A DNA stretch of 64,000 nucleotides, from contig NZ_JAMOIC010000013.1 in assembly GCF_024448895.1 (NCBI RefSeq), forward strand, positions 1 through 64,000, given 5' to 3'. Each line of letters begins with the position of its first letter. Position 1 is the stretch's first letter. Under the pieces are notes generated by a model. The model worked only from the letters and a program-made list of their open reading frames with translations, made no database searches and had not been told where the DNA came from. The DNA comes from Stutzerimonas stutzeri (lineage in GTDB: Bacteria; Pseudomonadota; Gammaproteobacteria; Pseudomonadales; Pseudomonadaceae). Shown here piece by piece: positions 14,762-52,358 of the stretch. The translations under genes and the position numbers were made by a program.

Positions 14762-14837
14762 TAGGCGTGGGATCGGTAAAGGAGTGGGTATAGCGGCGCA
14801 TCTATCGAAGGCGAGAAGGTCGCCGCTTTTCGCTGAC

Positions 14838-22402: not shown

Positions 22403-22465
22403 GTATTCGATACCTTGAGCGGGAAGGGCTGATCGTCTGGTCGAGGGTTGAAACCGAGCCTGGAA

Positions 22466-24010: not shown

Positions 24011-24026
24011 CTAAGCGTGCGCCTAA

Positions 24027-26584: not shown

Positions 26585-26599
26585 GTCCGATAATCGCCC
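26585..26599 (+). promoter_or_regulatory. PcaR-like box upstream of quiC
   Basis: GTCCGATAATCGCCC agrees at 13 of 15 positions with the P. putida PcaR site as I remember it (GTTCGATAATCGCAC), including the whole CGATAATCGC core. It lies 8 bases before the shared 20-bp element and 114 bases before quiC. The same 14-base string CCGATAATCGCCCG recurs before aroQ. Confidence 0.55.
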
Positions 26600-26607
26600 G
26601 AATAAAG

Positions 26608-26627
26608 TAACTAGTTAGTACATTTTC
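26608..26627 (+). promoter_or_regulatory. Shared 20-bp operator-like element, quiC copy
   Basis: TAACTAGTTAGTACATTTTC occurs here and, with one mismatch, in the same orientation before aroQ. It contains the perfect dyad TAACTAGTTA. A binding site for one regulator of both quinate/shikimate units is the simplest reading; the TetR-type gene after quiC is a candidate. Confidence 0.55.
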
Positions 26628-26713
26628 TTGCCTGCGGCGACGGCGCCTCCAATAATCATGGGAACGTCCGAACACATCGGGTCGCAATGGCGGCCTGGCC
26701 AGCAGGAGGTCCC

Positions 26714-30441: not shown

Positions 30442-30452
30442 GTGAATCTCCA

Positions 30453-30464
30453 TTGTTGTTGTTG
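30453..30464 (-). promoter_or_regulatory. Crc/Hfq-type A-rich motif at the dctP ribosome-binding site
   Basis: Minus strand CAACAACAACAA, followed one base later by the GGAGA Shine-Dalgarno of dctP. It matches the catabolite-activity pattern AAnAAnAA bound by Hfq with Crc in Pseudomonas, which blocks translation when preferred carbon sources are present. Confidence 0.6.
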
Positions 30465-30485
30465 GGCGAAGCACAGGGATGCCGG

Positions 30486-31766: not shown

Positions 31767-32305
31767 GGCTGAGTCCTCGCATCGGTTGGCGGCGTCAGCG
31801 AATGCGGAGGTTCAGGTGCGTGTCCGTCGCCCGCTCCGTCGACTTTTCCGCGCAGGGCCTGGACCAGCTCGACCAGCAGGATGGCACTGGCGCTGACGCC
31901 AAACACAACGCCCGCTGCGTAGAACCAGGCCATGGAAAGCCCCGAAGCCGGCGCCGTCACGTCCAGGTTGATGACCGCCTGCGCCCAGCTGCCTTTGGTG
32001 ATCAGCCAGCAGCCGAAGAGCATCAGCAGGTGCCCGATCACCAGGCAGACGCGCTGGCCGATCGGTGGCAGCTTTTTCACGATGCTGTCCAAACCGAGAT
32101 GGGCGTGCTCGCGCAGTGCGATAAGCGCGCCCAGAAATACCATCCAGACGAAGCACCAGCGCGACAGTTCTTCGCTGACGCTGATGCCTGAGTTGAATGC
32201 ATAGCGCAGCACGACGTTGCCGAACACCATCACCACCATGACCGCCATGCAGCCGACAACCAGCAGTTTCAGCAGCCGGAAGTACCATTCAACGAGGCTT
32301 TTCAT
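31763..32305 (-). CDS. TRAP transporter small permease subunit (DctQ), system 2
   Basis: A 180-residue protein with four hydrophobic helices and the DctQ marks VLRYAFNSGISVSEELSRWCFVWMVFLGALIALREHAHLGLDS. The start at 32305 has GAGGTG upstream, directly preceded by the A-rich AACAAAAACAA. It overlaps dctM by 4 bases and starts 71 bases after the aroE stop, consistent with one transcript from aroQ. Confidence 0.92.
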   Translation of the reverse strand: MKSLVEWYFRLLKLLVVGCMAVMVVMVFGNVVLRYAFNSGISVSEELSRWCFVWMVFLGALIALREHAHLGLDSIVKKLPPIGQRVCLVIGHLLMLFGCWLITKGSWAQAVINLDVTAPASGLSMAWFYAAGVVFGVSASAILLVELVQALRGKVDGAGDGHAPEPPHSLTPPTDARTQP

Positions 32306-32319
32306 CTCGCACGCACCTC

Positions 32320-32330
32320 TTGTTTTTGTT
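32320..32330 (-). promoter_or_regulatory. Crc/Hfq-type A-rich motif at the dctQ ribosome-binding site
   Basis: Minus strand AACAAAAACAA fits AAnAAnAAnAA and abuts the GAGGTG Shine-Dalgarno of the TRAP 2 small subunit. Confidence 0.5.
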
Positions 32331-32376
32331 AGGTCGGCGACGTCAAGGTCGCCGGCTTGTGCCCGTCAGGGCGTTT

Positions 32377-33234
32377 TCAAACGAAACTTGCGAAGTGCTT
32401 CAGCATGCGGTCGGCGTCTGCCTGTCTTCCGCTGAAGAGTTCGAATGCCTTCACTGCCTGAAAAACCGCCATGACGCTGCCATCCAGTGTCTGGCAACCC
32501 AGTGCTCGTGCATCGCGCAACAACTGGGTTTCCAGCGGGAAGTAGACGATTTCGGATACCCAAAGCGCGGCACGCAGCAGCGCGGCCGGCACGGGAGTTC
32601 CGGGTAGCTTGGTCATTCCCATGGGGGTGGTGTTGACCAAGCCATCGGCCTGCGCCATCGCTGCGGCGAGATCCGTACCGACCAGCGCCCGGTCGCTGCC
32701 AAAATGACGCGACAGATTATCCACCAGAGCCTGCGCACGCGTTGGGTCGACCTCGAACAAAGTCAGCTGCTCGACGCCCTGGCTGAGCAATGCATGGGCG
32801 ACCGCCGCTCCGGCACCACCTGCACCCATCTGCACGACACGCTGGCGAGCGGCGTTCGGCAAGCCCCGTCGAAACCCTTCTCCGAAGCCAAGCGCGTCGG
32901 TGTTGTGACCGACTCGCTTGCCGTCGCGCAATACCACGGTGTTCACCGCGCCAATGCTCGCTGCCTCTTCAGAGAGTTCGTCAAGCAGGGGAATGACGGC
33001 CTGCTTGCACGGATAGGTGATGTTCAGGCCGGTGTAGCCCATGTGCTGAGCCGCTTCGAGCAGGCTTGGCAACGCCGAGAGGTCGAGCCCCAGTGCGTCA
33101 AGGTCAATGAGTCGGTATAGGTAGCGAAGGCCTTGAGCATCGCCTTCGTGCTCATGCAGGGCAGGGGAGCGTGAGGCTTGAATGCCCGAGCCAATCAGCC
33201 CGGCCAGTACGGCGTTAGCGGAGGAATTACTCAT
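32377..33234 (-). CDS. NAD-type quinate/shikimate dehydrogenase (AroE family)
   Basis: A 285-residue AroE-family protein. Substrate-binding residues are visible in [11 protein letters not shown] and NITYPCKQ (catalytic Lys), with [11 protein letters not shown] for the second substrate contact. The cofactor motif [15 protein letters not shown] is followed by [12 protein letters not shown]. Biosynthetic AroE proteins carry an Asn-Arg-Thr there for NADP, whereas an Asp, as here, is typical of the NAD-dependent catabolic enzyme of Corynebacterium. It therefore most likely oxidises quinate and/or shikimate to 3-dehydroquinate and 3-dehydroshikimate. The start at 33234 overlaps aroQ by 4 bases; the longer open frame upstream is antisense-like noise. 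Operon aroQ-aroE-dctQMP. Confidence 0.88.
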
Positions 33235-33677
33235 GATTTCGCTCCCAGCAGCCGAGCGAAATGCTCTATACCCAGGCGATAACCATTGCTCCCCAAACCA
33301 CAGATGACACCAACCGCAACGGGTGAAACGTAGGACTGATGGCGAAAAGATTCGCGCTTGTGGACATTGGAAAGATGCACTTCGATGACCGGCAGTTCGA
33401 CAGCGGCCAGGGCGTCGCGGATCGCCACGGATGTGTGTGTCCAGGCGGCCGGGTTGATCAGGATGCCGGCGCACATTCCGCGAGCCTGATGGATGCGCTC
33501 GATCAGCTCGCCTTCATGATTGGTCTGGAAGAAGTCGACCTCCAAGCCATGAGACTCGGCCGTGTCACGGCAAAGGCGGGCGATGTCATCGAGCGTTTCA
33601 TGGCCATAGGTCGCTGGTTCACGTGTGCCAAGCAAGTTGAGATTGGGCCCGTTCAGCACCAGGATGATTGTTGTCAT
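33231..33677 (-). CDS. aroQ: Type II 3-dehydroquinate dehydratase
   Basis: A 148-residue type II dehydroquinase, which interconverts 3-dehydroquinate and 3-dehydroshikimate. The signature is present in order: [20 protein letters not shown] with the catalytic Tyr, [37 protein letters not shown] and [19 protein letters not shown] with the catalytic His. The ATG at 33677 is preferred over a GTG nine bases upstream because AGGGGTGA lies just ahead of it. First gene of the operon with the NAD-type dehydrogenase and TRAP 2, so it is a catabolic copy serving quinate use; a housekeeping aroQ presumably exists elsewhere. Confidence 0.92.
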
Positions 33678-36373: not shown

Positions 36374-37615
<1,242 letters not shown>

Positions 37616-37795
37616 CTATTCTTGGTTCGTCAGCGAGTACCGTTAATGGCTTGAACCCGTTAAAACTTGGACTTTCATAAACTCCGTTCGGTTATCGAAC
37701 ATCTCCACAAGCGCCCGATCGTGCTGCGATTTGGTTATGGCAAGCCGGCTGACTCGTGGACAATACAGGCGCTTATCCAGACGCCAGGGTCTTCC

Positions 37796-38704
37796 GTGAA
37801 CCTCGACAGCCGAATCAAATACCGCCACTTGTTGTGCTTCATCGAAGTCGCTCGCCAGGGCAGTCTGGTTCGCGCAGCGCAGGCCATGGCAGTCAGCCAG
37901 CCGGCGATTTCGAAGACGCTCAAGGAACTCGAAACGCTGCTCGAGGCCACATTGTTCGATCGTGGCAAGCAGGGGGTGACGCTGACCGCTGCCGGGCAGG
38001 CGTTTCTGCGCTACGCAGGGCCCAGCGTACAGGCGCTGCGTGAGGGCGTTCGCAGCCTGCGTGCCGGTGAACACGAGGCCGGAATGGTGCGGCTGGGGGC
38101 GCTCTCGACTGTGGAAAGCTCGCTGCTGCCGGACGTGGTGCGGCGCCTGCATGCGCAACATGCGGCGCTTGTGGTCAGTGTCGTCTCCGGGCCGAGCGCC
38201 TATCTGCTTGGCCAGTTGCGCAGCGGGGAGTTGGATCTCGTGGTGGGTCGGATGACCGATGCGCCACAGATCGAAGGGCTCAGTTTCGAACACCTGTATA
38301 GCGAATCCATGACCTTGGTTGTTCGCCCGGGGCACGCCTTGCTCGATGGTGACCCAAATCGTCTTGAGGATTTTCCGCTGGTGCTTCCTCAGGGCGGTAC
38401 GACTATTCGGCGACATGCTGACAGCTTGTTCATTCAGCTGGGCATCGCGCCACCGCCACGGCGGCTGGAGACGCTGTCCGTTGCGCTGAGCCGGCATTAT
38501 GTTCGTGTCAGCGATGCGGTCTGGGTCGCGCCGCTCGATGCCGTGCGTGAAGACCTCGCCAACGGCGAGCTGTGCGAAGTGAATCTGGGCGTGAAAGAAC
38601 CGGGCGGCTCGGTTGGCATCTGCAGCAATCCCACGCTTGCGGCGAGCCTTGCGATGCAATGGTGCTGCGAAGCGTTGCGCGAAGCTGCTGTTATCTACCG
38701 CTGA
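37796..38704 (+). CDS. pcaQ: LysR-family activator of the protocatechuate genes
   Basis: A 302-residue LysR protein of the PcaQ type. It starts with the conserved RIKYRHLLCFIEVARQGSLVRAAQAMAVSQPAISKTLKELE (HTH) followed by the effector domain. The GTG at 37796 is chosen because PcaQ/GbpR-type regulators begin right at this conserved segment; the open frame upstream to 37667 is unlike the family. It lies upstream of and in the same direction as pcaHG, with a perfect PcaQ dyad between them at 38713. The known effector of PcaQ in rhizobia is beta-carboxy-cis,cis-muconate. Confidence 0.92.
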   Translation: MNLDSRIKYRHLLCFIEVARQGSLVRAAQAMAVSQPAISKTLKELETLLEATLFDRGKQGVTLTAAGQAFLRYAGPSVQALREGVRSLRAGEHEAGMVRLGALSTVESSLLPDVVRRLHAQHAALVVSVVSGPSAYLLGQLRSGELDLVVGRMTDAPQIEGLSFEHLYSESMTLVVRPGHALLDGDPNRLEDFPLVLPQGGTTIRRHADSLFIQLGIAPPPRRLETLSVALSRHYVRVSDAVWVAPLDAVREDLANGELCEVNLGVKEPGGSVGICSNPTLAASLAMQWCCEALREAAVIYR

Positions 38705-38828: not shown

Positions 38829-39545
38829 ATGTCCGAACTGGACACCAGCCTGTTCGTCGCACGCGACCGCACCCGGCACCCAAAGGCGCTGACGCCTGAC
38901 TACAAGACCTCGGTTGCGCGCTCTCCGCAACAGGCGCTGATTACGCTCGCGCCGTCCATTTCAGAGACCACGGGCCCTGACTTTTCGCATCTCAAGTTTG
39001 GTCCCCATGACAATGACCTGTTGCTCAACTTCAACAACGGTGGCTTGCCCATCGGCGAGCGAATCGTCGTTTCTGGCCGGGTGATGGATCAGTACGGCAA
39101 GCCAGTGCCGCATACGTTGGTGGAAATCTGGCAGGCCAACGCAGGTGGCCGCTATCGGCACAAGAACGACCGCTATATCGCACCGCTGGACCCGAACTTC
39201 GGCGGTGTCGGCAGGGCGCTGACCGATAACGATGGCAACTATGTGTTTCGTACGATCAAGCCTGGCCCCTATCCATGGCGCAATGGTCCGAATGAATGGC
39301 GACCGGCACACATCCATGTCTCCATCAGCGGCCCATCGATTGCGACTCGTCTGATCACCCAGCTGTACTTCGAGGGCGACCCCCTGATTCCGCTGTGTCC
39401 GATTGCCCGGACCATCAGTGACGAGGCCGTGCAGAGCCTGATCGCCAGGCTCGATATGGGCATGGCCAATCCTATGGATTGCCTGGCGTACCGTTTCGAT
39501 ATCGTGCTGCGCGGGCAGCGCAAGACGCATTTCCCCAACCACTGA
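38829..39545 (+). CDS. pcaH: Protocatechuate 3,4-dioxygenase beta subunit
   Basis: A 238-residue subunit carrying the non-haem Fe(III) site of the ring-cleaving enzyme that turns protocatechuate into 3-carboxy-cis,cis-muconate. The intradiol signature is complete: [37 protein letters not shown] with the first Tyr ligand, [11 protein letters not shown] with the second Tyr, and [12 protein letters not shown] with both His ligands. The ATG at 38829 has AAAAGGAG upstream, preceded by CAACAAAA, a partial Crc-type site. Followed by pcaG after 13 bases. Confidence 0.96.
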
Positions 39546-39558
39546 GAAGGAGACGACG

Positions 39559-40164
39559 ATGCCCGTAACACTTTTGCCGGAAACCCCTTCTCAGACCGCT
39601 GGGCCATATGTGCATATCGGTCTGGCACTGGCCGCCGCCGGCAACCCCGCCCGCGAGCTTGAAATATGGAACGAGCTGGCCAAGCCGAATGCGCAGGGCG
39701 AGCACATCCTCCTTATCGGCCAGGTCTTCGATGGCATGGGCCATCTGGTACGAGACTCCTTCCTGGAGTTCTGGCAGGCCGACCACGCCGGTGTTTATCA
39801 CTTCCGCTTTGATCCAGAGCAGCCATTCAATAGCTTCGGCCGCACTGCAACCACGTTCGATGCCGGCGACTGGACACTCAAGACCATCAAGCCTGGTGCC
39901 GTGATGAACCGTTCCGGCGAGCTGATGGCGCCGCATGTCAACGTGTCGTTATTCGCGCGCGGCATCAACATTCATCTGCACACGCGGATCTATTTCGATG
40001 ATGAATCGGAAGCCAACGAAAAGGACCCGGTACTCAACTCCATCGAATGGGCGCAACGTCGCGAAACGCTGATTGCGCGGCGCTGCGAAATCGACGGGAA
40101 GGCGGCGTACCGCTTCGATATTCGGCTCCAGGGAGACGGGGAGACCGTTTTCTTTGATTTCTGA
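39559..40164 (+). CDS. pcaG: Protocatechuate 3,4-dioxygenase alpha subunit
   Basis: A 201-residue partner of PcaH with the same beta-sandwich fold but without the full iron ligand set, as is normal for alpha subunits. It starts with the diagnostic LLPETPSQTAGPYVHIGLA and contains GQVFDGMGHLVRDSFLEFWQADHAGVYHF and APHVNVSLFARGINIHLHTRIYF. AGAAGGAG precedes the ATG. Its last 11 bases overlap the likely start of the ZapE-like gene. Confidence 0.96.
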   Translation: MPVTLLPETPSQTAGPYVHIGLALAAAGNPARELEIWNELAKPNAQGEHILLIGQVFDGMGHLVRDSFLEFWQADHAGVYHFRFDPEQPFNSFGRTATTFDAGDWTLKTIKPGAVMNRSGELMAPHVNVSLFARGINIHLHTRIYFDDESEANEKDPVLNSIEWAQRRETLIARRCEIDGKAAYRFDIRLQGDGETVFFDF

Positions 40165-41263
40165 TGTTCTGCAGTTAAGGCGTGACGCACCGGGTCAGTC
40201 CGCTGCTCAGCAAGTCGAGCGAGGCATCTCGGCCCTGATAGCGGCACGCGGTTTTCAGGCCGATGCCGCTCAGCAGAGCGCTATCAAGCTGCTTGCCGAG
40301 TGGATCGACGCTTGGCAACGCGGCCGCCGGGGTTGGCCACGGGCGCCCAAAGCTGGCGTTTACCTCTGGGGTGGCGTTGGCCGTGGCAAGAGCCTCGTGA
40401 TGGACGCGTTCTTCACCGCAGCCCCCGTCAAGGCCAAGCGCCGGGTGCATTTCCACGGATTCCTTCAGGAGGTGCTTGAACGCCTCCAGCAGATCACGGG
40501 TCAGCCGGATCCTCTGGCGCGGGTCGCCCGCGAGATCTCGGTGAATACCCGCTTGCTCTGCTTCGACGAGTTTCACGTACACGATATCGGCGATGCAGTG
40601 TTGCTGGGGCGGCTGCTCAAGCATCTGGTCGGGGAGGGCATCGGCATCGTCGCTACCTCCAATTACATGCCGCAGGCGCTGTGTCCGAACCCGCTTTATC
40701 GTGATCGTTTCAAACCCGCTATCGAACTGATCGAGCGCCGATTCGCTAGCTACAATCTGGACGGCGGCGAGGACTATCGGCAACGTGCGAACGGTGGTTA
40801 CGTGTGGGGCGCATTCGTTCACGTCGCGGAGAATGCACAGAACGACTGGGTTACACGACGGTTGCAGCTGCCTGCGTCGGCCGAGCAAGACGTTCAGGTA
40901 GCAGTCAATCATCGGCCGTTGCACTTTTGTGCGCGATATCAGGCGACGGCCTGGCTGCATTTCGATGCGCTATGCCGGCTCCCGCGCTCCAGTGCCGACT
41001 TTCTCTGGTTGAGCCGCACCTTCGAATGCCTGGCGATTACTGGCGTGCCACCGCTCGATGGGCAGGGCATCGACGTGCAACAGCGCTTTCTCAATCTCAT
41101 CGACATTCTTTATGACAGCGGGATCGAGCTGAATCTGGTCGCTGAGGTGGGGCTGCCCGAGTTGCTGTCGGCGGGCGCTCACGTTGACTTTGCTCGCACC
41201 CGTAGCCGTCTGCAGCAACTTCGAAAGCTGCAGTCAGGACTTCACAGCGGGGAGCCGGTTTAG
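40154..41263 (+). CDS. ZapE/AFG1-like P-loop ATPase inside the pca operon
   Basis: About 369 residues of the AFG1/LACE1/ZapE ATPase family. Visible are a Walker A in GVYLWGGVGRGKSLVMDAFF, the family HFHGFLQEVLERL, a Walker B LLCFDEFHVHDIGDAVLLGRLL, sensor-1 IVATSNYMPQALCPNPLYRDRF and a closing IDILYDSGIELNLVA. No ATG fits; the TTG at 40154, nine bases after GGGGAGA, gives a family-like length and overlaps pcaG by 11 bases. ZapE acts at the division ring and its mitochondrial relatives in protein quality control; a role in aromatic catabolism is not known. The AEC transporter starts immediately at its stop. Confidence 0.82.
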   Translation: MISDVLQLRRDAPGQSAAQQVERGISALIAARGFQADAAQQSAIKLLAEWIDAWQRGRRGWPRAPKAGVYLWGGVGRGKSLVMDAFFTAAPVKAKRRVHFHGFLQEVLERLQQITGQPDPLARVAREISVNTRLLCFDEFHVHDIGDAVLLGRLLKHLVGEGIGIVATSNYMPQALCPNPLYRDRFKPAIELIERRFASYNLDGGEDYRQRANGGYVWGAFVHVAENAQNDWVTRRLQLPASAEQDVQVAVNHRPLHFCARYQATAWLHFDALCRLPRSSADFLWLSRTFECLAITGVPPLDGQGIDVQQRFLNLIDILYDSGIELNLVAEVGLPELLSAGAHVDFARTRSRLQQLRKLQSGLHSGEPV

Positions 41264-42193
41264 ATGCTGGCGATCCTTGGAATCACCGCACCGATTTTCA
41301 TCATCATCGCCATGGGTTTTCTCGCATGCCGAGTCGGGATGGTCACCCGCGAGCAGGCCGGCGGTATGGGACGCTTCGTCATTACCTTTGCACTGCCCGC
41401 GCTGGTCATTCGTGCACTGCTGGAACGGCCCCTCGCAGAGGTGATCGACTGGAATTACCTGCTTGGCTATGGGCTTGGATCGCTGTTGGTCTTCGGTCTG
41501 GGTTATGGCTTCGCTCGGCTGGTGCGCAAGGACACTCCTAGCGGCAGTGCGCTGGTCGGGCTTGGGGTATCGGTATCCAACAGCGGCTTCGTTGCCTACC
41601 CGATCGTACTGATGGCGGTCGGCGCTCCGGCTGGCGTGGCGCTGGCTTTGGGAATGATTGTCGAAAATCTGCTGATGATTCCGTTGGCGCTGACGTTGGC
41701 CGAGCTGGGCAGGCAGAGCGAAGACGGGGTCGGCAAAGCACTCCGTGCCACTGCGCATAATCTGGTTCGTCACCCCATACTCATCGCCATTACCGCGGCA
41801 TTGTTGATGGCGCTGCTTGATGTGCGTCCGCCGCCGGTAGCGATGCGAGTGATCGACATGCTCTCGACTGCCTCCGCACCAGTGGCTCTTTTCGTCATCG
41901 GGGCCAGCCTCAACGGGATGAAGGCGGGCGGATTGCTTGTGGACGTAGGGCAGATGGCCGTCGGCAAGCTGATCCTGCACCCGCTCATGGTGCTGCTGTG
42001 CTTCACGATGCTGCCGGTGTCCGACCCGGTGCTTGCCACCGCTGGTGTGCTTATGGCCGCGGCACCCATGATGAGTATTTACCCCATCCTCGGCGCGCGA
42101 TACGGGTTCGAGGGGCGCTGCGCTGCAGCATTGGTGGTGGCGACGGTACTGTCCTTTCTCAGCGTCAGTGCATTCATCTGGGCGGTGGCGTGA
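41264..42193 (+). CDS. AEC-family transporter (auxin efflux carrier type)
   Basis: A 309-residue membrane protein with about ten helices in two inverted halves. It shows the AEC pattern: ITAPIFIIIAMGFLACRVGMVTREQAGGMGRFVITFALPALVIRALLERP at the start and MLSTASAPVALFVIGASLNGM and AAAPMMSIYPILGARYG in the second half. Its ATG touches the stop of the ZapE-like gene, and pcaB follows after 93 bases, so it belongs to the pca transcript. Related carriers move organic acids such as malonate or malate. Uptake of an aromatic acid or export of a pathway acid are both possible. Confidence 0.85.
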   Translation: MLAILGITAPIFIIIAMGFLACRVGMVTREQAGGMGRFVITFALPALVIRALLERPLAEVIDWNYLLGYGLGSLLVFGLGYGFARLVRKDTPSGSALVGLGVSVSNSGFVAYPIVLMAVGAPAGVALALGMIVENLLMIPLALTLAELGRQSEDGVGKALRATAHNLVRHPILIAITAALLMALLDVRPPPVAMRVIDMLSTASAPVALFVIGASLNGMKAGGLLVDVGQMAVGKLILHPLMVLLCFTMLPVSDPVLATAGVLMAAAPMMSIYPILGARYGFEGRCAAALVVATVLSFLSVSAFIWAVA

Positions 42194-42286: not shown

Positions 42287-43642
42287 TTGAATCAGGGCAC
42301 CCATCAACTCTTCGACGCCTATTTCACAGGACCGCAAATGCGCCGGATTTTTTCGGATGAGGGGCGGCTGCAAGGCATGCTGGATTTCGAAGCGGCGCTC
42401 GCCCGTGCTGAAGCGCGTTGCGGTGTGATTCCTCAATCAGCGGTGGGTCCTATCGAGGGTGGCTGTAGCGCCGATCTATATGACCCGATCGCGCTCGGCA
42501 TCGCTATCGGCACGGCGGGTAATTCTGCAATTCCGCTGGTCAAGGCGATGGGCAAGCGCATTGCCGAGCATGACATCGAGGCCGAACGGTATGTTCACCT
42601 CGGGGCGACCAGCCAGGATGTGATGGACACCGGGCTTGTGCTTCAGCTGCGCCAAGCAATCGATTTGATTGAGGCTGATCTTTCAAGGCTTGGCGACTCT
42701 TTGGCAACCCAGGCCGAGCGACACGCACGCACCCCCATGGCCGGTCGCACTTGGCTGCAGCACGCAACGCCGGTGACGCTTGGTATGAAAATCGCCGGTT
42801 GGCTCGGCGCTATAAATCGTCACCGTCAACGCTTGCGCGAGATCAAACCGCGTGTGCTCTGTTTACAGTTCGGCGGCGCCTCTGGCTCGCTTGCGGCTCT
42901 TGGGGAGCAGGCCTGGCCGGTCAGTCAGGCTCTGGCCAACGAGTTGGGGCTGGAACTGCCCGATCAGCCCTGGCACACCCAGCGTGATCGGCCCGCAGAG
43001 TTCGCGGGGTTGCTGGGCCTGATCGCTGGCAGCTTGGGCAAGCTGGGGCGCGATCTTTCATTGCTGATGCAGACCGACGTGGGTGAAGTCTTCGAGCCCT
43101 CTGCACCGGGGAAAGGCGGCTCTTCGACCATGCCGCACAAGCGCAATCCGGTAGGCAGCGCTGTGATGATCAGCGCATCCGTCCGTGCGCCTGGGCTGGT
43201 TGCCACCATGCTCAGCGCAATGCCGCAGGAGCACGAGCGCAGCCTTGGGCTCTGGCACGCTGAATGGGAAACGCTGCCTGAACTTTGCTGCCTGGTGTCC
43301 GGTTCCTTGCAGCAGGCGCTGGTGGCGATCGGTGACCTTGAGGTCGACGCAGACCGCATGGCGGGCAATCTCGAGCAGACCCGCGGACTGGTTCTGGCGG
43401 AGGCCGTGAGCATTGCGCTTGCCCAGCGGATTGGTCGTGACGCGGCTCATCACCTGATCGAGCAATGTTGCAAGCGCGCTGTTGCCGATGGGCGCCACTT
43501 GCGGGGTGTGCTTGGCGAGACCCCGGAAGTCCGTAAGCAGCTCAATGACGCCGAACTTGATCGACTGCTTGATCCAGCAAACTACCTGGGACAGGCGCAA
43601 CTGTGGGTCGCGCGCGCCGTGGCCGAGCACCGCCGCCTTTAG
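42287..43642 (+). CDS. pcaB: 3-Carboxy-cis,cis-muconate cycloisomerase
   Basis: A 451-residue member of the fumarase/aspartase superfamily that lactonises the PcaHG product to 4-carboxymuconolactone. Diagnostic stretches are FDAYFTGPQMRRIFSDEGRLQGMLDFEAALARAEA, HLGATSQDVMDTGLVLQLR, MAGRTWLQHATPVTLGMKIAGWL and the superfamily signature GGSSTMPHKRNPVGS. The start is the TTG at 42287 with CAGGAG eight bases upstream. Follows the AEC gene and precedes pcaC. Confidence 0.95.
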   Translation: MNQGTHQLFDAYFTGPQMRRIFSDEGRLQGMLDFEAALARAEARCGVIPQSAVGPIEGGCSADLYDPIALGIAIGTAGNSAIPLVKAMGKRIAEHDIEAERYVHLGATSQDVMDTGLVLQLRQAIDLIEADLSRLGDSLATQAERHARTPMAGRTWLQHATPVTLGMKIAGWLGAINRHRQRLREIKPRVLCLQFGGASGSLAALGEQAWPVSQALANELGLELPDQPWHTQRDRPAEFAGLLGLIAGSLGKLGRDLSLLMQTDVGEVFEPSAPGKGGSSTMPHKRNPVGSAVMISASVRAPGLVATMLSAMPQEHERSLGLWHAEWETLPELCCLVSGSLQQALVAIGDLEVDADRMAGNLEQTRGLVLAEAVSIALAQRIGRDAAHHLIEQCCKRAVADGRHLRGVLGETPEVRKQLNDAELDRLLDPANYLGQAQLWVARAVAEHRRL

Positions 43643-43716
43643 CAGGCTCGCTTGCTACCAGCGATCGTCGAACGCGCTGTTAACTGCGCATGAACATTGA
43701 GAGGAGAGCTAACACA

Positions 43717-44112
43717 GTGGATGAGAAAGAACGCTACGAAGCGGGCATGCAAGTGCGCCGCGCGGTACTGGGGGACGCTCACGTCGACCGCAGCCTGCAA
43801 AACATCACCCCGTTCAACGAGGAGTTCCAGGAGATGATTACCCGTCATGCCTGGGGCGATATCTGGACCCGGCCCGGCCTGCCGCGACACACCCGCAGCC
43901 TGATCACCATTGCCATGCTCATCGGCATGAACCGCGAGGGTGAACTGAAGCTGCACCTACGAGCGGCGAAAAACAACGGCGTGACCCGGGACGAAATAAA
44001 GGAAGTGCTGCTGCAGAGCGCGATCTACTGCGGCATACCTGCAGCGAACGCCACATTCCATCTGGCCGAGCAGGTTTACGACGAGATGGGCGTCGAGTCC
44101 CTGGAGCAGTAG
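43717..44112 (+). CDS. pcaC: 4-Carboxymuconolactone decarboxylase
   Basis: A 131-residue protein that decarboxylates 4-carboxymuconolactone to beta-ketoadipate enol-lactone. It has the PcaC form DEKERYEAGMQVRRAVLGDAHVDRSLQNITPFNEEFQEMITRHAWGDIWTRPGL, and HTRSLITIAMLIGMNREGELKLHLRAAKNNGVTRDEIKEVLLQSAIYCGIPAAN is the conserved core. The GTG at 43717 fits the family start and has GAGAGGAGAG eight bases upstream; an ATG at 43690 would place that site inside the gene. The next step, PcaD, is not in the window and is not fused here. Confidence 0.94.
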   Translation: MDEKERYEAGMQVRRAVLGDAHVDRSLQNITPFNEEFQEMITRHAWGDIWTRPGLPRHTRSLITIAMLIGMNREGELKLHLRAAKNNGVTRDEIKEVLLQSAIYCGIPAANATFHLAEQVYDEMGVESLEQ

Positions 44113-45407: not shown

Positions 45408-45431
45408 AAAAAAAGCCCGTCAATGACGGGC
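45408..45431 (-). terminator. Terminator of the TRAP 3 - OprD unit
   Basis: Arms GCCCGT (45415-45420) and ACGGGC (45426-45431) preceded on the plus strand by AAAAAAA (45408-45414), which is a T-run on the minus strand. Strong minus-strand terminator 56 bases after the porin gene. Confidence 0.85.
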
Positions 45432-45486
45432 CAAAGCATCACGCGCAGGAGTTATGCGTACAACGGGAGCCTTATGGCGCTGACTG

Positions 45487-46749
45487 CTACAGGATCGAGA
45501 GCGGATAGTTGAAGATCAGACGGTTCTCATCGAGATCGCGCGTATTGACCTCGGAGCGATAGCTCGAGTTACGCAATTTGATGTTGAGGTTCTTCGCCGG
45601 CCCGTTCTGGATGGTGTACGACAGTTCGGTCTCACGCCCCCATTCCTTGCCGTCATCGGTGGTCGCGGTTCGAATATTGTCGCCGCTGATGTAGCGGTTC
45701 ATCAGTGTCAGGCCCGGTACGCCGACAGCCGCAAAGTTATAGTCATGACGCAGCTGCCAAGAGCGTTCTTCCGCGTTGTCGTAACTGTTATTGAAGCTGT
45801 CGTTGGCCAGCGAGCCACCGCTCGTGCCGTTAACCCGCATCCAGGTATCACCGCTGACCTTCTGCACACCGACGTAGAAAGTGTTGCCGCCCGTCTTCAG
45901 GCCGAACAGACCAGAGTAGGTCTTGTTGTCCAGCTTTCCGGCGCGGGCGCTGCCGTCCTCATCACCCTGGAAGTAGCCGAGGTTGGCAGTCAAGGCAAGG
46001 TCGTCGCCCAATGGCTGGGTGTGTAGCAACTGTATGTATTGCTGCTCGTAGACGTCCTTCAGTTCGGCAGTCCATAGGCCGACAGTGGTTTGCTTGTCGT
46101 TGAACGCGTACTCACCGCCAATGTAGTTGAAGCGATCGGAGGCTCCGCCGCCAAAGGCCATGTCTTCCATGCTGCCATCGTCGCGCGGGCTGTTCTGACG
46201 GAATTGGCCGGCTGTCAGCATCAGGCCGTCGAACTCGCGGGAAGTGATCATTCCGCCCTCGAAGGTCTGTGGCAGTGATCGACCATCATCGGCGCGCAGA
46301 ATCGGCAGCACCGGCATCATTTCGCCAATCTTCAGCTCGGTATTCGAGACCTTCGCTTTGGCGGCGACGCCGAAACGACCGTAGTCATCAGCCGGGCGGC
46401 CGTCACTGTGGCGGGGCAGCAAGCCCGTGCCCCAGGTGCCGCGACCGCCGTCGAGCTTGACCGCCAGACCAGCAAGCACATCGACGCCAAATCCGATCGG
46501 CCCCGGTGTGTAGCCAGACTGGACATTGAGGATGAAGCTCTGCGTCCACTCCTCGGCTTTGGTACGGTCCACGGTGTCATCACGGAATTCGCGGCCGATG
46601 TAGAAATTGCGCGCGTTCACCGTGATCTTGGTGTCCTCCACGAAACCGGCTGCACCTGCCGATAGCGGGGCCAGAGCCGAGATGGAGGCGGCGAGTAGGG
46701 TGGGTAACAAGATGCGGTTCGCTTGAGTGGTACGGGTCAGGTGTTTCAT
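45487..46749 (-). CDS. OprD-family outer-membrane porin
   Basis: A 420-residue outer-membrane protein. The signal peptide ends ...ALAPLSAGAAGFVED, followed by VNARNFYIGREFRD, a typical OprD start, alternating beta-strand sequence, KAKVSNTELKIGEMMPVLPILRADDGRSLPQTFEGGMITSREF (the conserved loop region) and a final strand NENRLIFNYPLSIL without the usual terminal Phe. The OpdK/OccK group takes up aromatic carboxylates, the OccD group basic amino acids. Position 113 bases after TRAP 3 suggests a matched pair for one acid. AACAACAATG at the start, after AAGGAAC, is a Crc-type motif. Confidence 0.92.
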   Translation of the reverse strand: MKHLTRTTQANRILLPTLLAASISALAPLSAGAAGFVEDTKITVNARNFYIGREFRDDTVDRTKAEEWTQSFILNVQSGYTPGPIGFGVDVLAGLAVKLDGGRGTWGTGLLPRHSDGRPADDYGRFGVAAKAKVSNTELKIGEMMPVLPILRADDGRSLPQTFEGGMITSREFDGLMLTAGQFRQNSPRDDGSMEDMAFGGGASDRFNYIGGEYAFNDKQTTVGLWTAELKDVYEQQYIQLLHTQPLGDDLALTANLGYFQGDEDGSARAGKLDNKTYSGLFGLKTGGNTFYVGVQKVSGDTWMRVNGTSGGSLANDSFNNSYDNAEERSWQLRHDYNFAAVGVPGLTLMNRYISGDNIRTATTDDGKEWGRETELSYTIQNGPAKNLNIKLRNSSYRSEVNTRDLDENRLIFNYPLSIL

Positions 46750-46862: not shown

Positions 46863-48185
46863 TCATGACAGCCACCGAACCAGACAGAGCGTGATCGAGG
46901 GAAACAGGATCAGTATCACCACGCGCACGACGTCGGAGATCAGGAAGGGTACGACGCCGCCAAAGGCGTCGCGTAGGGTCACGTCCCGCGCCATGCTGCT
47001 GATGACGTAGACGTTCATGCCGACCGGTGGGGTGATCATGCCGATCTCTACGACCATCAACGCCAGAATGCCGAACCAGATGGCTTTCTCGGTCTGATCC
47101 AGGCCGTAGAAATCCAACCCCATTATCAGCGGAAAGAAGATCGGGATGGTCAGCAGGATCATCGACATGGTGTCCATCACACAGCCGAGGATCAGGTACA
47201 GAATCAATATTCCGGCGAGTACCACGAAGGGGCCGACACCACTGTTGGTGATCGCCTCGGCCAGTGCCACAGGCAGCTGCGAGAGGGCCAGGAAGGCGTT
47301 CATGACGTCGGCACCGAGCAGGATCATGAAGATCATTGCCGTAGTTACTGCCGTGCCGAACAGCACCTCCTTGAACTGTGTCCAGCGCATTCCGCCTAGC
47401 ACTACCGCGAAGAACCCGGTACCGACGGTGCCGATCGCCGCCGCTTCGGTGGGCGTGAACCAGCCACCGTAGATGCCACCCAGAACGAGCATGAAGATCA
47501 GGAACACTGGCCAGACGCCTTTCTGGGCGCTCAACCGCTGTCGCCAGCTCAACCGCGGTTGAGCAGGGCCGGCTTCAGGGTTCATCCGTACATAGATCGC
47601 AATCGCGACCATATAGCCGAATGCCGCGAGGATTCCCGGAATGAAGGCGGCCATGAACAGCGCCGAAATATTCTCCTGGGCCAGAATGGCGTAGATCACG
47701 AGAACAACCGAGGGCGGGATCAGGATGCCGAGGGTGCCCCCGGCGGCCAGACAGCCAACTGACAGTGAACCGGAATAGTTGTATTTCTTCAGCTCGGGCA
47801 AAGCCACCTGGCCCATGGTCGCCGCGGTCGCAATGGACGAGCCGCAGACGGCACCAAAGGCTGCACACGAGCCTACAGCCGCCATTGCCAAGCCCCCTCG
47901 CCAGTGGCCGACCATCGCCGCTGCGGCGCGGAACAGTCCGGTTGCAAGGCCACCTCGTGAAGCGAATTGGCCCATCAACAAAAAGAGCGGGATCACCGAC
48001 AGGTCATAGACCGTATAACGCGCATAGGCGACCGTCTTCAGATAGCTCAGCAGCGGGGACCAGCCGCCGATGGCAACGTATCCGCCGATCCCTGTGAGAA
48101 GCATGGCAATGGCAATTGGGATGCGCACCACCAGTAAAACGAGGAGGACGGCCAGGAACAGCCCGCCGATTTCAACACTGCTCAT
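46863..48185 (-). CDS. TRAP transporter large permease subunit (DctM), system 3
   Basis: A 440-residue permease with about 12 helices: VRIPIAIAMLLTGIGGYVAIGG, GQFASRGGLATGLFRAAAAMVGHWRGGLAMAAVGSCAAFGAVCGSSIATAATM, GGTLGILIPPSVVLVIYAILAQ and VVEIGMITPPVGMNVYVISSMA. It overlaps the small-subunit gene by 4 bases. Encoded with its own binding protein and followed by an OprD porin, it forms a route across both membranes. A PcaR-type box upstream of the operon points to an aromatic or hydroaromatic acid. Confidence 0.94.
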   Translation of the reverse strand: MSSVEIGGLFLAVLLVLLVVRIPIAIAMLLTGIGGYVAIGGWSPLLSYLKTVAYARYTVYDLSVIPLFLLMGQFASRGGLATGLFRAAAAMVGHWRGGLAMAAVGSCAAFGAVCGSSIATAATMGQVALPELKKYNYSGSLSVGCLAAGGTLGILIPPSVVLVIYAILAQENISALFMAAFIPGILAAFGYMVAIAIYVRMNPEAGPAQPRLSWRQRLSAQKGVWPVFLIFMLVLGGIYGGWFTPTEAAAIGTVGTGFFAVVLGGMRWTQFKEVLFGTAVTTAMIFMILLGADVMNAFLALSQLPVALAEAITNSGVGPFVVLAGILILYLILGCVMDTMSMILLTIPIFFPLIMGLDFYGLDQTEKAIWFGILALMVVEIGMITPPVGMNVYVISSMARDVTLRDAFGGVVPFLISDVVRVVILILFPSITLCLVRWLS

Positions 48186-48709
48186 GCGGGTTTATCCTCA
48201 CCACGAAAATCCTGCCAGGCGGTATACAGCGCCACCACCGCCAATAATGCGAAGCCCGGCGCGAAGGCGCTCATTGACCACCAGATCGGCAGCCCCATGA
48301 TGATCGACTCCTCGCCCGTGCCGTAGGCATCGACCGTCCCGAGCCATGATCGCCAGGCCAGCAGCGCGGCCGCCAGCGCCATCAGCACGCCACCCAGGGC
48401 ATCCAGCGTGTTGCGTACAGGTTGCGGCGCGTGCAGCGTGAACACGTCGACGATGACGTTGCCGCGTCGCAGCTGGCAAAGCGGCAGGAAAAACACAATG
48501 GCAATGCCGCAGCCCATCTGCACCAGCTCGACGTCACCCAGCAGCGGTTCGTCGAACAAAGTGCGCATGGCAATGCTGTAAGTCGCCATCAAGGTCATCG
48601 CAACCAGCAGCAAGCCGCCGATGAAAGCGAGAAATCGGGAGAGGGCATCAAGCAGGCGGCCAAGGGGAGTCGCAGGCGCCGAAGCGGCCTGAACAGCTGG
48701 TTCACTCAT
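48182..48709 (-). CDS. TRAP transporter small permease subunit (DctQ), system 3
   Basis: A 175-residue protein with four hydrophobic helices: FLAFIGGLLLVAMTLMATYSIAMRTLFDEPLLGDVELVQMGCGIAIVFFLPLCQLRRGNVIVDVF holds helices 1-2 with a DctQ-like polar link, and LLAVVALYTAWQDF ends the last. The short N-terminus has an Ala/Pro-rich leader. Start 43 bases after the dctP stop; overlaps dctM by 4 bases. Confidence 0.9.
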   Translation of the reverse strand: MSEPAVQAASAPATPLGRLLDALSRFLAFIGGLLLVAMTLMATYSIAMRTLFDEPLLGDVELVQMGCGIAIVFFLPLCQLRRGNVIVDVFTLHAPQPVRNTLDALGGVLMALAAALLAWRSWLGTVDAYGTGEESIIMGLPIWWSMSAFAPGFALLAVVALYTAWQDFRGEDKPA

Positions 48710-48752: not shown

Positions 48753-49814
48753 TCAGCGTGTCAGTTGGGCGTTGTATTGCTCAATGAGCTGACGGGCCTC
48801 TTCGAGAAGCGCTTCGCCATTTTCGTAGCCCTTGTCTTCCACATCCTTGACCCAGTCGTCACTGACCCTGCTGGTGGCCTTCATCCATTTGGCCAGCTCG
48901 TCTTCAGGCAACACGTAGATCTCGTTCTGCCGTGACTTGGCCAGCTCATGACCGGTCTCGACTACCTGGTTATCCCAGATTTGTCCGGCTTGACGTGAAA
49001 GCTCTCGACCGCTGTTCGCGTCGATGATCTGCTTGAGATCATCGGGAAGTTTCTCGTAGGTGTTGCTGTTCATTGCGACGATCAGAGCGGTATGCATCAA
49101 AGCCGGCGAGCCCGCTTTGGTTTCGGTGTGGTACTTCACCAGTTCGTGCAGCTTCAATGCTGGCACGACGTCCCATGGCACTACTGCGCCATCCACCACA
49201 CCTTTGGAAAGCGCTTCGGGGACTTGCGGAACGGGCATGGCAACCGGCGTTGCGCCAAGCAACCCGATGGTCTTTGCTGCGGTGCGGTTGGCTGCGCGCA
49301 GTTTTTGCCCACCGAAATCCTTGAGCGAGTGGATCGGCTTCTTCGTGGTGTGCACCAGTGCACCGTCAGTCAAGTGAGTTGCCAGCAGATGCATGTCCGC
49401 AAACTCCTTCTGCCCATGCTTCTCGATGAAGTCCCACATCGCCTGACTGCTTGCTTCGGAAGAGCTGCTCATGAAGGGCAATTCAAAGGCGGCTGACAAG
49501 GGAAAGCGGCCGCTGCTGTAGCCAGGCAGCGTCCAGACGATATCGGCAACGCCGTCGCGCACCTGATCGACGAGCTGGGGAGGCGTTCCGCCAAGCTGCA
49601 TAGAGGGGTAGAACTGAAACTGGATTCGACCGTTGGATTGTTCTGTGATGCGCTCTGCCCACGGCTTGAGAAATTGCGCCTGCGTCACCGAATGGGCCGG
49701 CAGAAAGTGCGCCAATTTCAATGTGACCACAGGCTCATCAGCCTGGACGCTGCCATTTAGCACAAGAGAGCCGAGTGCAAATATGGCGAGCAAAGTCTTT
49801 GGGAGCTTGAGCAT
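48753..49814 (-). CDS. TRAP transporter substrate-binding protein (DctP), system 3
   Basis: A 353-residue periplasmic protein. The signal peptide MLKLPKTLLAIFALGSLVLNGSVQA is followed by VVTLKLAHFLPAHSVTQAQFLKPWAERITEQSNGRIQFQFYPSMQLGG, and the ligand region FGGQKLRAANRTAAKTIGLLGATPVAMPVPQVPEALSKGVVDGAVVPWDV carries the conserved Arg. It belongs to the branch often found with aromatic or branched-acid transporters. First gene of dctP-dctQ-dctM-oprD. AATAAAAAAGG upstream is A-rich and Crc-like; an exact PcaR consensus lies 130-144 bases upstream. Confidence 0.93.
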   Translation of the reverse strand: MLKLPKTLLAIFALGSLVLNGSVQADEPVVTLKLAHFLPAHSVTQAQFLKPWAERITEQSNGRIQFQFYPSMQLGGTPPQLVDQVRDGVADIVWTLPGYSSGRFPLSAAFELPFMSSSSEASSQAMWDFIEKHGQKEFADMHLLATHLTDGALVHTTKKPIHSLKDFGGQKLRAANRTAAKTIGLLGATPVAMPVPQVPEALSKGVVDGAVVPWDVVPALKLHELVKYHTETKAGSPALMHTALIVAMNSNTYEKLPDDLKQIIDANSGRELSRQAGQIWDNQVVETGHELAKSRQNEIYVLPEDELAKWMKATSRVSDDWVKDVEDKGYENGEALLEEARQLIEQYNAQLTR

Positions 49815-50206
49815 TGCGTCATCCTTTTTTATTCATTGTTATGTGCGAACTGGATGTTCCGGTGAGCCGAGTGACTTCAGTTCGTTTCGCCAATGAATCG
49901 TGCAAGCTCCTGACTGTTCAATCAATCGGCCATTCCGCTTACTGTGCGATTATCGAACAGCATCCTAGCCGTTTCGTTTAATACGGCGGTGTTCGAATGC
50001 CGGGCAGGTCTCCTGCAAACGTTGCGAGTGATGATTGAGAAGTGATTAAAGTCACGAGGTTTGGCGAGGCCAAGGGGGACGGGGCGCTCAGAAGCAGGGG
50101 GTTGCCGGATAGGGCAAGCCCGCGCCGGATCAGATGGGCGCGGGGTCGTTGAGGTCGTGTCTTGCAGACTTCGCTATGTGGCAGAGGACATTGTTCTCGC
50201 GAACTG
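49815..50206. other. Gap between TRAP 3 and the DUF3325 gene
   Basis: 392 bases. Contains the dctP leader with an A-rich AATAAAAAA before its Shine-Dalgarno (about 49825-49833, minus strand) and the PcaR box. The rest, about 49960-50206, holds nothing I recognise. Confidence 0.45.
49944..49958 (-). promoter_or_regulatory. Exact PcaR consensus upstream of TRAP 3
   Basis: The minus strand reads GTTCGATAATCGCAC, identical to the P. putida PcaR site as I remember it. It lies 130-144 bases before dctP in a 392-base gap, correctly placed for promoter control. PcaR, an IclR-type protein responding to beta-ketoadipate, is not encoded in the window. Confidence 0.7.
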
Positions 50207-50536
50207 TTACCAGCCGGTCAACGCCGTTAGCGCTCCGGTTAGTCCAAGGATGGCTCCCAGCGGCATGACCCAGGGCTTGCGCCAGGCCAGGACCAGGCAG
50301 ACCGTCACTCCGGCGAACATCAGCTGAGTGATGCCGACTACCAGACCGATTTCAATTCCGAGTGATTCTACGTTCAATATGAGGCTCGCAATCAACAGCC
50401 CGGCCGCTATCAGCCGCAGTCCTCGTTGTTTGCCAGGCGAAGGTGACGTCTCGAATACATCGCGGTGATGCCGGCTCATGGCCAGACACAAGGCCAGCAT
50501 GCCGAGATACGCGAGGCCGAAAGCCAGTGTCGTCAT
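50207..50536 (-). CDS. DUF3325-type small membrane protein
   Basis: A 109-residue protein with three or four hydrophobic helices (LAFGLAYLGMLALCLAMSRHH, LRLIAAGLLIASLIL, IGLVVGITQLMFAGVTVCLVLAW, PLGAILGLTGALTAL). The opening with SRHHRDVF is the DUF3325 pattern. It overlaps the PepSY gene by 4 bases as the third gene of a trio often found beside ferrisiderophore receptors in Pseudomonas. Function unknown; probably an accessory of the PepSY protein. Confidence 0.75.
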   Translation of the reverse strand: MTTLAFGLAYLGMLALCLAMSRHHRDVFETSPSPGKQRGLRLIAAGLLIASLILNVESLGIEIGLVVGITQLMFAGVTVCLVLAWRKPWVMPLGAILGLTGALTALTGW

Positions 50537-52065
50537 GGAGCCAACTCCTGTTCACCTGCTCGAGAACGAACTTTCCTGGTTGCCGGGCTTTTCTCGGCAG
50601 GCCTGCGAAGCACACGCCAGGCGCACACCAGGCCAGCTATCAGCAATACAGCATCGACGCCTGCGAGCAGCAAATCGCCACGAAGGAGCGCCGCTATCAG
50701 ATGGCCCTGCGGCGCAATTACGAAATTGAGCAAAGGCAGGCCGATGGCAAGTACGGCCAGAATGCCGAACAGGCGGCGCGGTAGTACAACGGGATGGTTG
50801 CGGCCGACATATGCGAGGCCGGCTATCGCGATCCAGCTCAGAGAGAAGCACCAGGCTTCGACCGTTGCCCGTGCCGAAAGGCCATCGGGCAACAGGCGGT
50901 TAGCCCACAACAATGCGAGCGAGGCGATGGGTAAGCCGAAGAAGACCGCGCCATTGAGTGCCCGCACGACGGCGAGGCCGCGGGTCTGACGTCCCTCACG
51001 CTTGCGCAACCAGACGCTCGTGCCAGCAACCAGCATGGCGCAGCCGGCCAGGCCAAGCAGCGCATACAGCGCCCGGACGATGGTCCCGCCAAATTGCGCC
51101 ATGTGTAGCCCTACCAGCCACATGTAGGCGCGATAGCCAGTGGGTGCCTGCTGCTCGTCGAGCAGCTCTCCGGTAAAGGCGTCATAGCTCAGCGTGTCCT
51201 GGGGCGATCCGATTCGGGATGGGTCGAGGCGACGAACGCTGACCACCGAAGAGGCGTCATCCGGATGTTCGACGATGACCCAGCCCGGCTCACCGCCTTC
51301 CCAGTGCTGACGTGCATTGGCCAACATGTCATTCTTGGGGGCAGGCTGACCGGCAGGCTGATCGAGTTCGTTTCGGTGGTAGCCGCCTTGAACCTCTTCG
51401 AAGAACGCCAGCGGATTGCTGTCGTACACGACCATCGCCCCCGCGGGCATGTAGGTTGCCACGAAGATGGCGACACCGGTGTAAGCAAGGATCAGGTGAA
51501 ACGGCAGACCGATCACACCGAACAGGTTGTGAGCGTCGAGCCAGGCGCGTTGGCCGTTTGCCTGCGGTCGCAATGTGAAGAAATCCTTGAAAATTCTCCG
51601 GTGGATGATGATTCCTGAAACCAACGCCACCAGCATGAACATGCCGGCCAGGCCGACGACGTACATACCGAACGTCCCGGCCTGCAAGTTGTAATGCAGC
51701 GTGAAAAAGAACTCGCCGCCTACCGTCTCTGGCATCGGCGTGCCGTCACGGGGATCGAAAGCGACACGGCCGCGCGTTCCAGTCCCATCCTCCTCCCAAC
51801 CGAGCCGCCAATAGGGTTCGCGCGTGGTCGGCCCGTGGAGCCAGTAAACATGTAAGGGTTCTTCGACGTTTTTCTGCACCCATTGGGTGACGTCGTTTGC
51901 CGTCATGGATGTAGCTGCTGGCATATGCAGGGCAGGCCGCATCCACCGCTCAATCTCCTTGTCGAAGCAGGCCAAGGTGCCAGCGAACAGAATCACGAAC
52001 AGTAGCCAGCTCGGCAGAAGACCGCCCCACGTGTGCAGGCCAGCCATGGATTGGCGCAGGGTCAT
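50533..52065 (-). CDS. PepSY-associated transmembrane protein (iron-regulated type)
   Basis: A 510-residue inner-membrane protein. The first helix MTLRQSMAGLHTWGGLLPSWLLFVILFAGTLACFDKEIERWM is the PepSY_TM start; a large periplasmic region follows, then helices with LVALVSGIIIHRRIFKDFFTLRP, LDAHNLFGVIGLPFHLILAYTGVAIF and VGLHMAQFGGTIVRALYALLGLAGCAMLVAGTSVWLRKREG. Conserved His residues in HTWGG, HRR, DAHNLFG and GLHMAQ suggest haem or metal binding; relatives such as FoxB/FegB reduce ferrisiderophores. The start at 52065 overlaps the DUF3649 stop by 4 bases. Confidence 0.88.
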   Translation of the reverse strand: MTLRQSMAGLHTWGGLLPSWLLFVILFAGTLACFDKEIERWMRPALHMPAATSMTANDVTQWVQKNVEEPLHVYWLHGPTTREPYWRLGWEEDGTGTRGRVAFDPRDGTPMPETVGGEFFFTLHYNLQAGTFGMYVVGLAGMFMLVALVSGIIIHRRIFKDFFTLRPQANGQRAWLDAHNLFGVIGLPFHLILAYTGVAIFVATYMPAGAMVVYDSNPLAFFEEVQGGYHRNELDQPAGQPAPKNDMLANARQHWEGGEPGWVIVEHPDDASSVVSVRRLDPSRIGSPQDTLSYDAFTGELLDEQQAPTGYRAYMWLVGLHMAQFGGTIVRALYALLGLAGCAMLVAGTSVWLRKREGRQTRGLAVVRALNGAVFFGLPIASLALLWANRLLPDGLSARATVEAWCFSLSWIAIAGLAYVGRNHPVVLPRRLFGILAVLAIGLPLLNFVIAPQGHLIAALLRGDLLLAGVDAVLLIAGLVCAWRVLRRPAEKSPATRKVRSRAGEQELAP

Positions 52066-52358
52066 GGGCGAGCCCTCAATTCGACGGGAAGGTAAGCGCC
52101 GAGGCAAAGGAGCGCGGCCAACACTGCGATGAACAGCCAGGCGAAAAGCGCGCTACGGGCGGCAAAGGCGTAAATGACCGCGCCCACCCATACAGCGAAG
52201 CAGAGGAGGCTGGCCGTCACGACCCGATCCGGGCGAGACATCGGCAGGTACACGGAGAAGAAAGCGGTGAAACCAAAGGCCAGTGCATAGCCGCCCAGCG
52301 TCGCGGCCGAAATGCGGCCGACCAGATTGGCAAGGCGGGGAGATACGAGTGTGGCCAT
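52062..52358 (-). CDS. DUF3649-type small membrane protein
   Basis: A 98-residue protein with three hydrophobic helices (ISAATLGGYALAFGFTAFFSVYLP, VVTASLLCFAVWVGAVIYAFAA, LFAWLFIAVLAALLCLGAYLP), matching the DUF3649 pattern. The ATG at 52358 is chosen because GGAGGG lies eight bases upstream; the frame extends to 52409. First gene of the DUF3649-PepSY-DUF3325 trio. A Fur-like stretch lies about 190 bases upstream. No TonB receptor is adjacent in this window. Confidence 0.75.
   Translation of the reverse strand: MATLVSPRLANLVGRISAATLGGYALAFGFTAFFSVYLPMSRPDRVVTASLLCFAVWVGAVIYAFAARSALFAWLFIAVLAALLCLGAYLPVELRARP

Follow-up and report, generated by a model that had tools for sequence, protein, structure and literature searches.

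Uptake is a bottleneck in the degradation of aromatic compounds and of lignin, and for many TRAP systems the annotation goes no further than dicarboxylate transport. A FEBS J. paper has reportedly dealt with TRAP proteins for lignin aromatics. Among the described systems that resemble the locus studied here, PcaK, the AAHS-family MFS carrier of the P. putida pca regulon (NF053517), shares with it the predicted uptake of 4-hydroxybenzoate and protocatechuate as well as a PcaR-type composite site, found before four annotated pcaK genes; it is, however, a single MFS protein, whereas the TRAP-OprD system is tripartite and comes with a binding protein and an outer-membrane porin of its own. P. stutzeri A1501 grows poorly on 4-hydroxybenzoate, for which its lack of PcaK has been put forward as a plausible explanation (PMC2907835). 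TRAP uptake of aromatic acids is known from TarPQM of Rhodopseudomonas palustris and from Comamonas (PMC13406360, PMC5812351); TarPQM and the solved TarP proteins are like our system in being TRAP transporters with an aromatic-acid binding protein, but neither a PcaR site nor a porin partner is described for TarPQM in the accessible portions of this literature. In the alphaproteobacterium Roseovarius nubinhibens a TRAP system beside the pca cluster is upregulated on 4-hydroxybenzoate (PMC12442348); its genes adjoin pca genes, as do those of our locus, although the likeness is one of gene context, and the accessible text describes no PcaR operator or OprD porin. On the other hand, deletion of five candidate transporters in Vibrio natriegens, two of them TRAP systems near protocatechuate genes, caused no defect in uptake or growth (PMC13253662). 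As for the regulator, PcaR activates or represses depending on the position of its box relative to the promoter (PMC12455658). The open-access literature searched, a scope in which absence carries little weight, yielded no link between PcaR and a TRAP or TRAP-OprD operon.

The DNA analysed here, which we call the window, is a stretch of 64,000 nucleotides from Stutzerimonas stutzeri. The original prediction had described a TRAP operon ending in an OprD porin, and the order dctP-dctQ-dctM-oprD on the minus strand was borne out by Pfam matches over cut-off. The operon consists of dctP (48753..49814; PF03480), encoding a solute-binding protein of 353 aa whose nearest neighbours in the PDB are aromatic-acid proteins of the TarP type; dctQ (48182..48709; PF04290) and dctM (46863..48185; PF06808), encoding the small and the large membrane subunits; and an oprD-family porin gene (45487..46749; PF03573, 514.8 bits) whose nearest solved relative is a BenF-like porin (3jty, 574.6 bits). 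By the ORF coordinates, dctP and dctQ are 43 nt apart, dctQ and dctM overlap by 4 nt, and 113 nt separate dctM from oprD. A pattern scan placed a terminator-like hairpin with a T-run after oprD (45414..45432, minus strand), which is weak evidence when taken alone because five such patterns occur in the region against 3.9 expected. Sequence comparisons lead us to regard dctPQM-oprD as a probable PcaR-induced importer of 4-hydroxybenzoate and/or protocatechuate that would replace PcaK, perhaps beside other AAHS carriers.

The starting point was the claim that an exact PcaR 15-mer lies on the minus strand 130-144 bases before dctP. The pattern search recovered it with no mismatches as GTTCGATAATCGCAC at 49944..49958 (box 1), identical to the PcaR operator of the P. 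putida pcaO/pcaIJ promoter (PMC12455658), and the distance agrees with the dctP start codon at 49814, from which the 15-mer is 130-144 bases upstream. Service of the site to the PepSY-domain gene at 50533-52107 was also considered and is unlikely, this gene lying on the minus strand with its end about 575 bases upstream of the 15-mer; a small ORF on the plus strand (50465-50989) runs antisense to it. At equal base frequencies an exact 15-mer is expected 0.01 times in the genome. Allowing up to three mismatches, the window contains nine match rows, corresponding to seven places of which two are read on both strands, against 1.53 expected from shuffles. Over the whole 5.39 Mb genome, a threshold of one mismatch leaves three places, namely the TRAP promoter, the pcaI promoter (C18:35467) and the intergenic DNA that separates tctCBA from a class III CoA-transferase gene (C5:325259), and the reversed pattern gave no match there at the same threshold. 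A wider pattern used with one mismatch added the pobA-pcaQ intergenic region and C2:190302, which falls inside an ORF, its reversed control again matching nowhere in this genome. As a further control, the other TRAP systems of the window have no 15-mer match with up to two mismatches within 2 kb.

Conservation was followed by a DctP scan of genome contigs that returned 36 loci, 22 of them from Stutzerimonas and Pseudomonas (69-91% identity) and 14 more distant (44-50%). A version of the site (at most three mismatches, within 500 bases) precedes dctP in 21 of the 22 closer loci, at 140-185 bases and as the exact 15-mer in six of the 21; the exception, L029, in which oprD precedes dctP, has no site before either gene. 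Among the distant homologues a match within 500 bases was found in 1 of 14 (L044, at -404, with two mismatches). A family census of 398 genomes, 24 of which encode a DctP of at least 69% identity, told a similar story in a set that overlaps with the first: 22 of the 24 carry before dctP a site that departs from GTTCGWTWATCGMAC at no more than one position, while the stretches fetched for the other two (L127 and L128, DctP 71%, one being the same record as L029) and for five genomes with DctP at 53-57% contain none. An alignment of 17 upstream regions, a chosen subset that comprised, besides the window, two loci of the census and 14 of the 22 closer ones, showed as conserved stretches the site, a block just after it and another near the start codon; the site has been kept while a large part of the intergenic sequence around it has changed. 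With no mismatches allowed, the wider pattern gave 1-7 match rows per genome (palindromes counted twice) in 23 genomes that carry this dctP, and its reversal one match in total. The 25 annotated loci among these matches lie before pcaI (9), dctP (6) and quiC (5), the rest being at tctC/CoA-transferase, pcaR/pcaF and an IclR gene/tct operon (one each) or without a reference gene (two, L068 and L071). Many equally good sites at unrelated places, which would have spoken against the original prediction, did not turn up in the genome and relatives scans. That the 15-mer is a functionless relic or a chance match would fit the degraded second box of the window's own copy (see below), but with an expectation of about 0.01 exact matches for the whole genome and with the site retained in 21 of 22 relatives amid diverged intergenic DNA we hold this to be extremely improbable, and chance was rejected on the whole-genome counts together with the conservation.

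The site is also part of a larger promoter layout. In 9 of the 11 pcaI/pcaF promoters compared, a second box follows the 15-mer after exactly 12 nt (ATCGRATTG in eight, a one-mismatch form in one), and the TTG of this box opens a -35-like hexamer, from which TANNNT is separated by 17 nt; L069 and L070 lack the second box. The 24 TRAP promoters with a site have a perfect second box in 16 cases, two mismatches in four and three mismatches in three (the window, L013 and L014), the box being absent from L132; ten of the 16 perfect boxes come from closely related genomes of the P. oleovorans/mendocina group, have the same sequence there and are not independent. Letter-shuffled downstream sequence yields two mismatches or fewer at that offset with a probability of 0.002. 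In the window itself the second box is degenerate: GGCCGATTG (49923..49931, minus strand), 12 nt after box 1, has three mismatches in nine to ATCGRATTG, and a slightly better match, with two mismatches, occurs at offset 4. The putative promoter (49897..49925, minus strand) would consist of the -35 hexamer TTGATT (49925-49920), 17 nt and the -10 hexamer CACGAT (49902-49897), at the same positions as TTGTNN-17-TANNNT in nine pcaI/pcaF promoters; the -10 is poor, and a consensus promoter scan misses it. No second box was found at six quiC sites, nor at the tct or pobA/pcaQ sites (six readings of three sites).

A search for the composite two-box motif with at most one mismatch matched in 192 of 298 census genomes, and its reversal had no match among the matches listed. 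Thirty composite loci were annotated among the matches listed, 24 before pcaI, four before pcaK and two before the TRAP dctP; at least one further match, beyond these 30, has an IclR gene on one side and a tct operon on the other (G313:C10:43759, L077). Box 2 reads ATCGGATTG before pcaI in 24 of 24 of the annotated loci and ATCGAATTG before pcaK (4) and dctP (2). This split is a tendency, because the pcaI gene of L061, outside the 30 loci, has ATCGAATTG as well, and box 2 as a clean marker of transporter versus enzyme genes was rejected on account of this pcaK-like form. Compared with the P. putida pcaIJ promoter, the TRAP promoter of the window has the same 15-mer, and the two-box layout of the pcaI promoters compared recurs at most of its orthologues, whereas the pcaIJ promoter drives enzyme genes and pcaI promoters mostly carry ATCGGATTG where the two annotated TRAP loci, like the four pcaK ones, carry ATCGAATTG. 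The upstream placement of the boxes suggests activation by PcaR.

A PcaR protein is encoded at C18:34658 of the same genome (TIGR02431, 334.8 bits against a cut-off of 284.75). It aligns to P. putida PcaR (8eju) with 455.9 bits and has in its N-terminal half a run of 65 identical residues, which we take to hold the helix-turn-helix. Its gene stands directly before pcaI-pcaJ-pcaF-pcaD, away from the window, where pcaI and pcaJ were named from their CoA-transferase domain and position and pcaI has a site of its own. A paralogous regulator of the IclR family might act at the TRAP site in place of PcaR, considering that the genome holds five other matches to the PcaR model (138.7, 134.1, 65.2, 39.6 and 20.7 bits) and that, in loci of the L019 type, a similar palindrome precedes a tct operon divergent from an IclR gene whose identity to PcaR is only about 23-29%. 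We judge this improbable in view of the two-box layout that most TRAP promoters share with those of pcaI, a known PcaR target, and of pcaK, and no IclR-type match of the genome lies on the contig of the window. The arrangement in L019 (3060-7457) is such that the IclR gene, whose product shares about 27% identity with PcaR, diverges from tctBAC, with the palindrome between them, next to pobR-pobA-TRAP.

The neighbourhood of the operon points in the same direction. On the oprD side the window has, in order, genes for methionine aminopeptidase, pcaC, pcaB, an AEC-family carrier, an AFG1/ZapE-like ATPase, pcaG, pcaH, pcaQ, pobA and an AraC-type regulator, the latter named pobR by position. pcaB and pcaC (42287..44112; NF006554/TIGR02426 and TIGR02425), pcaH and pcaG for protocatechuate 3,4-dioxygenase (38829..40164; TIGR02422 and TIGR02423) and pcaQ (37796..38704; TIGR02424, 372.1 bits) are on the plus strand, and pobA for 4-hydroxybenzoate 3-monooxygenase (36374..37558; TIGR02360, 686.4 bits) is on the minus strand. 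Pattern matching also found a PcaR-like palindrome between pobA and pcaQ, GTTCGATAACCGAAC in minus-strand reading (37686..37700), without a second box. The ATPase and carrier genes between pcaG and pcaB (40073-42193) recur in L014 and L016 and partly in L030 and L032. In 11 loci of the P. oleovorans/mendocina group (L019-L028 and L047) the order is pobR, pobA directly before the operon, dctPQM and then oprD, except in L020, whose DNA ends before oprD; pcaC-pcaD-pcaB follow about 4 kb further in the nine of these loci that reach far enough. Elsewhere pcaC comes after the operon in L012, L014 and L016, the last two having also pcaB and more; pobA and pobR adjoin the operon in L015; pcaC and pcaD lie further on in L017; and pcaQ, pcaH and pcaG stand before dctP on the other strand in L030 and L032. 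The pcaQ genes of L016, L030 and L032 are 92%, 68% and 67% identical to that of the window. The locus DNA examined holds no pob or pca gene in L013, which ends after oprD, L018, L029 and L031. In L019 the gene after oprD (14453-16387) encodes a chemoreceptor with an HBM sensor domain and possibly links uptake with chemotaxis, and a second DctP-like gene stands in tandem before dctP in L015, L017 and G249:C1:3882848.

PcaK appears to be missing where this operon occurs. The genome of the window has no NF053517 match at E 1e-150, its one strong AAHS MFS scoring 232.6 against the PcaK cut-off of 770. In the census PcaK was found in 193 of the 398 genomes at E <=1e-150 and over cut-off in 189, but over cut-off in none of the 24 with DctP at 69% or more, a near-exclusion that is confounded by phylogeny because PcaK is absent from all census genomes of the window's genus. 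One of the 24, G113 (E 4e-156), is among the 193 (Fisher p 2e-6) and, by deduction, is one of the four below cut-off; when all 29 DctP genomes are taken, G031 (DctP 53%) has a full PcaK. Other MFS genes of the AAHS family are present at E 1e-60 in 16 of 23 TRAP-bearing genomes, that of the window included, and two such genes have PcaR-like palindromes about 200 bases before them (G001:C136:982-996, in L071, and G007:C11:37093-37107). Therefore, the TRAP system need not be the sole aromatic transporter under PcaR control and may share the work. The tie of the operon to the PcaR regulon, proposed from one motif, gains from the presence of pcaR, from the conservation of the site before orthologous dctP genes with the two-box layout in most of them, from the pob/pca neighbours in the window and in most relatives and from the near mutual exclusion with PcaK. 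The predicted membership of the operon in this regulon has support that goes far beyond a single motif.

The ligand cannot be read from the regulation, because PcaR responds to a pathway intermediate. By sequence and by fold DctP is closest to aromatic-acid binding proteins and well above dicarboxylate ones: it is 38-45% identical to TarP_Csal, TarP_Sse and a metagenome aromatic-acid protein, TarP_Rhp (7nqg) being more distant at 29%. A dicarboxylate importer, as the name dctP suggests, is disfavoured by these structural neighbours. The porin scores 405.8 bits against the vanillate porin OpdK, with two entries named only porin between OpdK and 3jty. The original list of candidate ligands, which included protocatechuate, 4-hydroxybenzoate, quinate/shikimate and beta-ketoadipate, can accordingly be narrowed: 4-hydroxybenzoate and protocatechuate are favoured because the closest relatives are aromatic-acid TRAP proteins for DctP and a BenF-like protein for the porin, and beta-ketoadipate and quinate/shikimate are less likely, the latter because another TRAP system of the window adjoins a shikimate-dehydrogenase-like gene with quiC close by. 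That other operon (29437-33474), likely for quinate/shikimate uptake, has a gene order that recurs in L017 and L029. A PcaR-like site, GTCCGATAATCGCCC, with two mismatches precedes quiC on the plus strand (26585..26599); the quiC genes of five relative loci have a closer PcaR match than that of the window (26585-28606), and the sites of the relatives are often followed by a AACCAGTTNGTNCATTT-like element, to which another regulator may bind.

It is conceivable, then, that PcaR controls the operon and that its substrate is some other aromatic acid or compound of the pathway, namely a hydroxycinnamate (such as coumarate or ferulate), quinate/shikimate or beta-ketoadipate. The ligands in the nearest TarP structures are coumarate, cinnamate, caffeate or ferulate, one structure being open, whereas 4-hydroxyphenylacetate is found in the more distant TarP_Rhp, and PcaR senses a pathway intermediate and not the imported acid. 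We nevertheless find a substrate of this kind rather unlikely: pobA stands directly before the TRAP operon in the 11 P. oleovorans/mendocina-group loci, pca genes come after it in several Stutzerimonas loci, the shikimate-dehydrogenase-like gene goes with a different TRAP system of the window, and among solved binding proteins those for aromatic acids come nearest, with the dicarboxylate ones well behind.

For 4-hydroxybenzoate and/or protocatechuate, which we prefer as ligands, the system can be pictured as follows. PcaR, probably sensing beta-ketoadipate, would bind the 15-mer as well as the weaker box 2 that adjoins the -35 hexamer, and the bound protein would activate the dctP promoter as at pcaI; with beta-ketoadipate acting through PcaR, uptake would therefore rise once the pathway runs. 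The OprD-family porin would let the aromatic acid through the outer membrane, the TarP-like DctP would capture it in the periplasm and DctQM would drive it inward, presumably by an ion gradient. If true, this would supply a conserved but misnamed operon with a regulator and a class of ligands, and a classic regulon would have retained the logic of its promoters after exchanging its transporter for one spanning both membranes, which may explain 4-hydroxybenzoate uptake without PcaK in Stutzerimonas species.

Whether the same holds more widely is evenly balanced in our view: in several Pseudomonadaceae a porin-linked TRAP system could have replaced PcaK under a two-box PcaR promoter, mostly with the pcaK-like ATCGAATTG in place of the ATCGGATTG usual at pcaI, in a regulon that may further include tctCBA. 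Through the third genome site, tctCBA may be a second PcaR-controlled transporter. The sequence at that site (C5:325259; L011 8260-8274), between tctCBA and the class III CoA-transferase gene, is a perfect palindrome, GTTCGATAATCGAAC, which is also present in L076 and has no second box. Elsewhere in the window, adjacent genes for an FHA-domain protein, a protein kinase and a PP2C phosphatase (21548-24800) form a signalling cluster unrelated to the TRAP operon.
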